36,482 nt of DNA from Thermodesulfovibrionales bacterium (GTDB lineage Bacteria > Nitrospirota > Thermodesulfovibrionia > Thermodesulfovibrionales > CALJEL01): assembly GCA_026417875.1 (NCBI GenBank), contig JAOACK010000014.1:1-36482 (forward strand). The letters run 5' to 3'. Position 1 is the first letter of the stretch, and the number at the start of each line of letters is the position of its first letter. The position numbers and the translations under genes are program-made. The notes beneath the pieces are model-generated. The model was not told the DNA's origin and did no database searches. It was given only the letters and a program-made list of their open reading frames with translations. Of the stretch, positions 15,235-22,103 are shown piece after piece.

Positions 15235-15728
15235 TATTCAATCTTCTTGAATGCCTGTTTCTTTGCACCGCATACAGGACATTCATCAGGTGGTTCATTT
15301 TCAAAAGTATTTCCGCATACCTGACATACATAGTAATCTACTTCAGCATTCTTTCCGAGGTTCTCAAGTGCCTTCCTGTAAAGATCTGCATGTATCTTTT
15401 CTACCTAATTGGCGAACTGAAAGCTCTTCAGAGCGCCTACTCTTCCTTCAGATTCTGCATCCTTTATCATTTGAGGATACATGCTTTCAAATTCATAGGT
15501 CTCTCCATTAATTGCTGCCTGCAGATTTTCTTTAGTTGATTTAATAGCTCCAAGTTCTCTCAGATGATTCATAGCATGGACCGTTTCTGCCTCGGCAGCT
15601 GCCCTGAAAAGCTTGGCTATCTGTCTGTATCCTTCCTCCTCTGCCTTCTTTGCAAAGGCGAGATATTTTCTATTCGCCTGTGATTCTCCTGCAAAGGCTT
15701 CAAGGAGATTCTTCTCAGTCTTTGTCAT
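15234..15728 (-). pseudogene. Rubrerythrin interrupted by an in-frame amber codon
   Basis: The frame encodes a whole rubrerythrin of 165 codons including the stop, but codon 108 (15407-15405) is TAG. Before it are the di-iron ligands Glu15 (AGES) and Glu48/His51 (AETVH). After it, in the same frame, come the second ExxH (VEKIH, Glu110/His113) and a complete rubredoxin domain (YVCQVCGN ... DECPVCGA). Homologues usually have Glu or a similar residue at this point, so one G-to-T change (GAG to TAG) explains it. The 107-residue product would lack the fourth helix and the rubredoxin centre. Options are a recent nonsense mutation, a sequencing error, or suppression. No second defect is visible. AAGGAGG precedes the ATG. 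Confidence 0.88.
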
Positions 15729-20288: not shown

Positions 20289-20306
20289 GAGGCTTGTACC
20301 CGACAA

Positions 20307-20323
20307 CAAGGCTATATGCCTTG
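20307..20323. repeat. Inverted repeat CAAGGC-TATAT-GCCTTG
   Basis: A perfect 6-base inverted repeat with a 5-base centre in the 104 bases between perR and the first broken plus-strand gene. It could be an operator or a weak hairpin; no U-run flanks it in a useful position. Confidence 0.35.
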
Positions 20324-20350
20324 ACAATTTTATAATGTGTAAAAGATGTT

Positions 20351-20818
20351 ATGAAAGGTTTAGTAATAAGAACAGTATATAACAATAAAGATGGGAAGGG
20401 GCGCTGTAAAACTCCCTTAAGGGATTCGGGATTACAAAGTGTAGAAAGGGCACCTTTACATTAACCACAGTAACCCGGTAAAGGAAGATGAAAATGGATT
20501 CTGTATAGGTAATCCAAGAGAGCCGCTTTCTGATCTTCATTATGAGCCATTCTGGTGCGGGGAGCAGATATTGTGTAAAGAATTCTTCTAGGAAATCCAA
20601 TAGGAGAGTGGAGGTATGTTTATAAGGGCATGCCTGTTTTTTTTGTGTACCAGGAACGTGATAGAACCTACACTCTATGGGGTTACACAAAGGTTAGAGA
20701 TGTTGACAAAGAGAGGGAAGATTATCCTGTAATATTTTTTGAACCTTTCGAAGCCTTGCCTGAAGACAGAAGGATTAAGAAACTCACGGCAACAGAGGTA
20801 ACTGGAATAAAAAGGTAG
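20351..20818 (+). pseudogene. Frameshifted gene A (unrecognised family)
   Basis: Coding sense is carried by several frames in turn. The first frame starts MKGLVIRTVYNNKDGKG at 20351; a second segment reads KCRKG; a third reads INHSNPVKEDENGFCIGNP and continues to LCKEFF before a TAG at 20589; the last reads NPIGEWRYVYKGMPVFFVYQ and runs to the TAG at 20818. At least two, probably three, single-base indels are needed to join them. The composite would be about 155 residues with several cysteines (CRKG, WCGEQILC). I do not recognise the family. The last segment alone has an ATG at 20630 but no ribosome binding site, so it is not a convincing small gene. Confidence 0.72.
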
Positions 20819-20821
20819 AAT

Positions 20822-21105
20822 ATGCCATTTTACAGATACATTGAGACAGAAAAGGTAAGATTTTTAGAGAATATCACTGAGGAGGGTAAAAATATGATAT
20901 CAAATCATGCCTATGAACCTAAAAATTTTTTTAGTTTCTGCTTGATGTCCATGATTCTGTTTACTCAAAACTTCAGGAAATAGCATTTTTTGAAGGAAGG
21001 GAAATCGCAGACTTGTTCAGAGAGGCCCTTGGAAATTTAATTAGAGAAAAGTCCATAAAGAGTGAGCATCCTCACGAGGCAATTCAAACCAACAATCCAC
21101 TATAA
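20822..21105 (+). pseudogene. Frameshifted gene B (unrecognised family)
   Basis: The reading frame opens MPFYRYIETEKVRFLENITE three bases after gene A and stops at a TAG at 20981. The likely correct continuation lies in another frame: FLLDVHDSVYSKLQEIAFFE, then GREIADLFREALGNLIREK, to the TAA at 21103. The switch falls at a run of A5T7 near 20928-20939, a classic slippage site. The composite would be about 94 residues, helical and charged. I do not recognise the family. Coding periodicity on both sides of the break argues for a once-intact gene. Confidence 0.7.
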
Positions 21106-21116
21106 AGGAGGTTTTT

Positions 21117-21556
21117 ATGCCATTAATTAATTTTTATAAGGCAATAAGTGCGGATTTGAGCTACCAGCAGGCTGGGGCGGATATATATATTTAGAAGACG
21201 ACAATGGAAAAAGAATAATCTGTCCTCATCCAGATGAATTTGAGACCATTGAAAAGGTTCTTGGCAGCAAATTCTCACCTGAGCTTGTTGCGTCCAGAAC
21301 TGGTTTCAACTCTTTTTGTATATGCCTTGACTGTCTGCACCAGTTTTATGCAGACCTTGGAGAATTTTACTGGTTTGATGCATTGATTGCATACAAAACA
21401 GGTAAACTGCAAAAAAAGGCAAAGGATGAAAGAAAATGTCCAAGGTGTGGCTCAGAAAGGGTTAACACATTATTAGAATTGATTGAAAGGCCCTGCCCAT
21501 CATGCAAAGAGGGAATAATTGATGTGATTGATTCTGACATAATTGTAATGGCTTAA
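21117..21556 (+). pseudogene. Frameshifted gene C, zinc-ribbon protein
   Basis: AAAGGAGG precedes the ATG at 21117. The frame begins MPLINFYKAI and soon ends at TAG 21192. A second frame with strong coding sense reads KCGFELPAGWGGYIYLEDD and continues through CICLDC, CPRCG and CPSC to the TAA at 21554. One single-base indel near 21135-21150 accounts for the break. The composite is about 146 residues with four or five Cys pairs, so a multi-zinc-ribbon protein of unknown role. It is the third broken gene in a row and was probably one operon with A and B. Confidence 0.75.
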
Positions 21557-21557
21557 T

Positions 21558-21585
21558 TTGACATAAAAACCCACTTTATGATAAA
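21558..21585 (+). promoter_or_regulatory. Promoter of the tRNA-Gly/tRNA-Cys pair
   Basis: TTGACA (21558-21563) is a perfect -35 box. GATAAA (21580-21585) at 16 bases is a weaker -10. The predicted start falls a few bases before tRNA-Gly at 21598. Confidence 0.6.
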
Positions 21586-21597
21586 GTCAATTATTCT

Positions 21598-21673
21598 GCG
21601 GGTGTAGCTCAGCTGGTAGAGCACAACCTTGCCAAGGTTGGGGTCACGGGTTCGAATCCCGCCACCCGCTCCA
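21598..21673 (+). tRNA. tRNA-Gly (anticodon GCC)
   Basis: Acceptor stem GCGGGTG/CACCCGC, anticodon stem CAACC/GGTTG around loop TTGCCAA (anticodon GCC), T-arm CGGGTTCGAATCCCG, and encoded CCA. It is 8 bases before tRNA-Cys and likely transcribed with it. Confidence 0.97.
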
Positions 21674-21681
21674 TCCCTAAT

Positions 21682-21757
21682 GGCGGCGTACCCAAGCGGC
21701 TAAGGGAGGGGTCTGCAAAACCCCGATTCAGCGGTTCGAATCCGCTCGCCGCCTCCA
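21682..21757 (+). tRNA. tRNA-Cys (anticodon GCA)
   Basis: Acceptor stem GGCGGCG/CGCCGCC, anticodon stem GGGGT/ACCCC around loop CTGCAAA (anticodon GCA), T-arm GCGGTTCGAATCCGC, and encoded CCA. The next 127 bases contain only a weak AGAAAAG/CTTTTCT inverted repeat (21757-21786) that might terminate the transcript. Confidence 0.97.
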
Positions 21758-21935: not shown

Positions 21936-22103
21936 ATGATGCTTGAATTAAATAATAAGGAAAAAGAATTATTAAAAGAAATCCTTGAGAGTTATCTTTC
22001 TGATTTAAGGGAGGAGATCGTAAAAACAGAGGACCACAGATGGAAACCCTTTCTTCATGAAAGAGAAGATATGGTTAAGGCCCTGATATCAAAACTTTCC
22101 TGA
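21936..22103 (+). CDS. Uncharacterised 55-residue helical protein
   Basis: A short acidic protein ([20 protein letters not shown] and onward) predicted to be mostly alpha-helical, with a second helix [15 protein letters not shown] strong promoter and a purine-rich ribosome site (AAGGGGGTGAG) support expression from the ATG at 21936; a second ATG follows immediately. Upstream in-frame codons would place the start inside the promoter and are rejected. It stands alone between tRNA-Cys and the convergent tRNA-Pro. No family recognised; an adaptor or anti-parallel helical hairpin is possible. Confidence 0.72.

Follow-up and report, generated by a model that had tools for sequence, protein, structure and literature searches.

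Organization of the locus

Three-frame translation of positions 20351-21556 of the window (the whole stretch of DNA analyzed here, 36,482 nucleotides, corresponding to contig 14 of a draft genome that comprises 179 contigs, totals 2.0 Mb and has an estimated completeness of 95%) yields related-looking protein pieces in different frames across the region and no intact open frame that covers it, as the first-pass annotation had indicated. That annotation divided the pieces among three consecutive genes, A, B and C; comparison with homologues reduces these to two, with A and B being the halves of one gene, here called AB. The features of the locus and the intact homologues used to define it are:

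20290-21554, no strand assigned: lineage-specific insert between fur and tRNA-Gly, missing at the corresponding place in the congener
About 20351-21105, forward strand: broken gene AB, Cys/Trp-rich in its N-terminal domain and ending in a ribbon-helix-helix; its intact homologues are single genes
20426-20446, forward strand: two frame changes, both within the Cys-rich portion of AB, from alignment to the L014 and L015 homologues
20586-20592 (near 20589), forward strand: AB frame change that falls on a conserved Trp codon of the homologues, from frame-tolerant alignment
20816-20818, forward strand: in-frame TAG in AB, Trp in both intact homologues; the earlier end of 'gene A'
20928-20939, forward strand: A5T7 run with an AB frame change (about 20930-20939), just 5' of the ribbon-helix-helix
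20944-21054, forward strand: ribbon-helix-helix remnant (homologue-profile match, E 1.6e-4)
21106-21119, forward strand: Shine-Dalgarno-like AAGGAGG and the ATG of C, by direct reading
21117-21556, forward strand: broken gene C, multi-Cys zinc-ribbon-type, with one frame change at about 21138-21145, at the first Cys pair
L014:1198-1977 and L015:825-1571: intact AB homologues, each a single continuous frame through A and B

When ORFs of at least 90 amino acids are considered, the ORF-free stretch at this locus is the longest in the 236 kb examined, for which the organism's own genome was sampled as 200 kb in stretches. A comparable ORF-poor stretch on another contig of the same genome (L040:6922-8335) carries ankyrin-repeat pieces over several frames and is probably a pseudogene, so that decayed genes are not unique to this place.

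Gene AB and its lesions

A search of 396 genomes of the phylum with the longest 'gene A' piece (20579-20815) returned two homologues from the same order, with intact open frames of 259 and 248 amino acids. Both extend beyond the end of 'gene A' to cover the part that corresponds to 'gene B'. A profile built from the two has three matches in the window that differ in frame, at 20351-20890, 20424-20657 and 20944-21054, the last of these in the frame of B. Because the homologues are continuous and the profile matches both parts of the window, we conclude that A and B are a single gene, whose original product had about 245 residues. Frame-tolerant alignment gives 43-44% residue identity to the intact homologues, with 44% over 231 residues. 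In the profile search AB occurs in 3 of the 177 genomes of the order, the broken window copy counted. Profiles of both genes found no second copy of AB or C in the organism's own genome, in which the DNA of 20300-21600 has a single occurrence.

The first-pass annotation had counted at least four indels, a number that is exceeded when the region is aligned in a frame-tolerant manner to intact homologues: there are five frame changes and one in-frame TAG. Four of the frame changes and the stop fall in AB, and the outcome is identical with either intact homologue. The A5T7 run had been located correctly. All five frame changes are of the same sense, an apparent loss of a single base, and some lie at short homopolymers. 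The residues themselves have also changed, with 79 kept out of the 139 positions that are invariant in the two AB homologues and covered in the window; among the eight invariant Trp residues of the homologues three are kept and five are lost, one of them to the stop codon.

Both intact AB homologues match RHH_1 at the C-terminus (24.4 and 22.6 bits against a Pfam cut-off of 20.5), and the window's own ribbon-helix-helix fragment, taken alone, has no Pfam match and is recognized by the homologue profile only. The description of A as Cys-rich and of unknown family is upheld for the N-terminal domain of about 190 residues, which matches no curated family, and needs extending in that A runs on into B and its ribbon-helix-helix end. 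A sequence search of the PDB with an intact AB homologue gave no match, and the moderately confident predicted structure of a 79-residue AB piece (pLDDT 73) found no significant match there (best E 0.25). These features make it likely that AB bound DNA sequence-specifically and that its Cys-rich domain, which may have bound metal, served as a sensor or as a second binding domain. AB may thus have been a DNA-binding regulator, with C as its partner or as neighboring cargo.

Gene C and its relatives

Gene C starts at the ATG at 21117, behind a good ribosome-binding site and 11 bases past the end of AB, in the layout of an operon. Its stop-free frame of 138 codons was seen in 1 of 20,000 first-order shuffles and is therefore not due to chance, and C is identical to an intact 125-amino-acid relative (L046:509-886) at 60 of 121 positions (50%). 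The earlier assignment of C as a multi-Cys zinc-ribbon protein holds at the level of type, below every curated cut-off: the best Pfam zinc-ribbon score is 16.5 of the required 30.8 bits for the window fragment, and 23.2 of 34.4 bits for the relative in genome G066, for which Zn_ribbon_8 gives E 7e-5. The predicted structure of C is poor (pLDDT 44).

The open frame of C bears on a reading in which part of the locus still functions, with translation of C beginning internally, or with the ribbon-helix-helix remnant being produced on its own, and the rest dead. The frame of C is stop-free from 21140 and keeps most Cys and the conserved residues from the second Cys on, and the ribbon-helix-helix piece is an open stretch of 56 residues. 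Against this, translation from the ribosome-binding site and ATG of C would enter the wrong frame, the first Cys pair, which is present in relatives, is disrupted, and a recent origin of the lesions accounts equally well for the open frame. We therefore regard partial function as highly improbable.

Relatives of C are distributed over distant lineages. Among 326 genomes of the phylum (E 1e-6) C was found only in the organism's own genome and in G066, from another class, where it is intact and adjoins a phage-type family gene. Two Geothermarchaeota MAGs also carry relatives, one intact (L006:1283-1966) and the other, although related to it, interrupted by an in-frame TAG at L007:3983-3985. A further relative, with two frame changes, lies on plasmid pCBA1112-01 of the haloarchaeon Haloplanus rubicundus (L051:3900-4265); beyond this broken copy, no relative of C and none of AB was found among plasmids. 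No protein is listed for the Haloplanus copy and one number is missing from the series of locus tags there, which fits a RefSeq pseudogene. Three of the five C copies found here, including that of the window, are broken.

These comparisons speak to the possibility that the breaks are functional and are bridged by recoding, such as programmed frameshifting. One break has a long T run, which would suit such a mechanism; however, AB homologues and intact C relatives are continuous, the plasmid and archaeal C copies are broken at other places than the window's, and five shifts and a stop would have to be bridged within 1.2 kb. As the breaks are not shared with homologues, recoding is not supported, and we consider its probability negligible.

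The insert in its genomic context

In the congener (G001), the closest relative, the gene run is shared up to fur and is followed by an unrelated gene, and the tRNA-Gly/tRNA-Cys pair lies elsewhere. In blastn comparisons synteny (L012) stops at window position 20289 and homology (L002, tRNA-Gly/Cys) restarts at 21555; AB and C are both missing from this genome. The place upstream of fur that AB and C occupy in the window holds a different gene in the congener (L012:11380-12100), and may be a site prone to gene turnover. The surroundings of the tRNA-Gly/tRNA-Cys pair (window 21598-21757, L002:1346-1503) also differ between the two species, with a restriction-type-looking neighbor in the congener. 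A small intact-looking ORF of 55 residues lies between tRNA-Cys and tRNA-Pro (window 21936-22103), with no family match above cut-off.

The patchy distribution of these genes across domains suggests that the AB/C insert was acquired horizontally. Searches for marks of transfer found neither an integrase nor an att site, and no clear donor; no att-like repeat joins the ends of the insert. A phage origin was considered and rejected, the 50,697 phage records searched containing no relative of either gene. Viral contigs likewise returned no relative of AB or C, apart from one counted C relative that presumably belongs to a record close to the genome of the window.

Clustering of the lesions and the case for decay

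For comparison we used the 37 other genes of the same contig, about 32 kb of coding sequence. Six of the seven known lesions fall in the 1.2 kb of the locus, which makes up 3.6% of the coding sequence. Such clustering has a binomial probability of about 1.6e-8, uncorrected for the post hoc choice of the patch. Each window gene that has a congener match for comparison is in a single frame with zero frame changes; genes with no congener match were judged by full-length open frames only. The earlier statement that the surroundings are largely clean is borne out by the single known lesion in the other 32 kb or so, and has to be qualified for the rubrerythrin gene that carries it (window 15237-15728, reverse strand). 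There an in-frame TAG at 15405-15407 stands in place of GAG in the congener, and the frame then continues intact to the C-terminal rubredoxin-like part.

The principal alternative is that the breaks are assembly or consensus errors, arising from low coverage, mixed strains or homopolymer undercalls, and that the organism itself carries both genes in intact form. Five frame changes of the same sense, one of them beside the A5T7 run, are what such errors could produce, and the fragmented state of the draft genome and the isolated stop in rubrerythrin point the same way. In contrast, no frame change was found in the other coding sequence of the contig, about 32 kb, and the genes shared with the congener are uniformly single-frame. 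The lesions lie exactly in the genes that the congener lacks, and errors are not expected to single out accessory genes; furthermore, errors of the indel type do not usually create a nonsense codon or replace invariant residues. Decay is favored over assembly error because the lesions are concentrated in lineage-specific genes and are accompanied by the stop and the replaced invariant residues. On these sequence grounds we infer that the lesions are biological, and assembly error appears unlikely.

Of the readings offered by the first-pass annotation, the true decay of one operon is thus the best supported, with the amendment that the operon had two genes and not three. The locus probably represents the remains of a lineage-specific two-gene operon, most likely acquired horizontally and recently disabled, which under standard decoding would give no full-length protein. 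The lineage would have gained the operon, most likely from a horizontal source, with the congener lacking it. Its first gene, AB, would have encoded a protein with a Cys/Trp-rich domain ahead of a DNA-binding domain of the ribbon-helix-helix type, and its second, C, a small multi-Cys protein of zinc-ribbon type; both genes would then have been disabled recently by the six lesions, of which five are frame changes and one is a nonsense codon.

A decayed operon is a routine phenomenon, and the main result here is the corrected gene count. If the breaks are genuine, the locus offers a snapshot of an acquired operon under loss. The two families are undescribed; one of them is common to distant bacteria and archaea, neither has a full-length curated model, and they could be useful for catalogues of mobile accessory genes.

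Comparison with known systems

A shorter relative of the N-terminal domain of AB was found in G098, from another part of the phylum, within the following locus:

L052:2200-10321: possible defence locus of G098, where the AB N-terminal relative lies upstream of genes for a DrmD-like helicase (HEPN_Swt1/SNF2) and a TmtA-like ATPase

The likeness to DISARM is that this relative lies just upstream of both the DrmD-like and the TmtA-like genes; in contrast, G020 and G359 have no such neighbors, and neither C nor intact AB matches a PADLOC model, nor does the archaeal C relative. As neither AB nor C matches a PADLOC model, a defence role is only a lead, taken from one neighborhood. A wider proposal would be that AB and C are two undescribed mobile accessory families, with C common to bacteria and archaea and often gained and lost, and with AB joining a new Cys/Trp-rich nucleic-acid-binding domain to a ribbon-helix-helix, maybe tied to defence or counter-defence; we hold this to be speculative and rather doubtful.

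AB resembles the RHH_1 (CopG/Arc) regulators through the C-terminal domain that scores above cut-off in its intact homologues, and differs from them in that this domain is preceded by a Cys/Trp-rich domain with no curated family. C shares paired Cys motifs with zinc-ribbon proteins (Zn_ribbon_8 and others), and is set apart by conserved GWGG, CPHP and CLHQF motifs outside the ribbon and by scores below the curated cut-off. The closest parallel to the locus as a whole is with ordinary bacterial pseudogenes that arise by the recent decay of acquired genes. Here, as there, several small disabling lesions lie in dispensable, patchily distributed genes and the housekeeping genes are intact; the disabled copies have intact homologues, the lesions are not shared with these, and among the features tested we found no difference from such pseudogenes.
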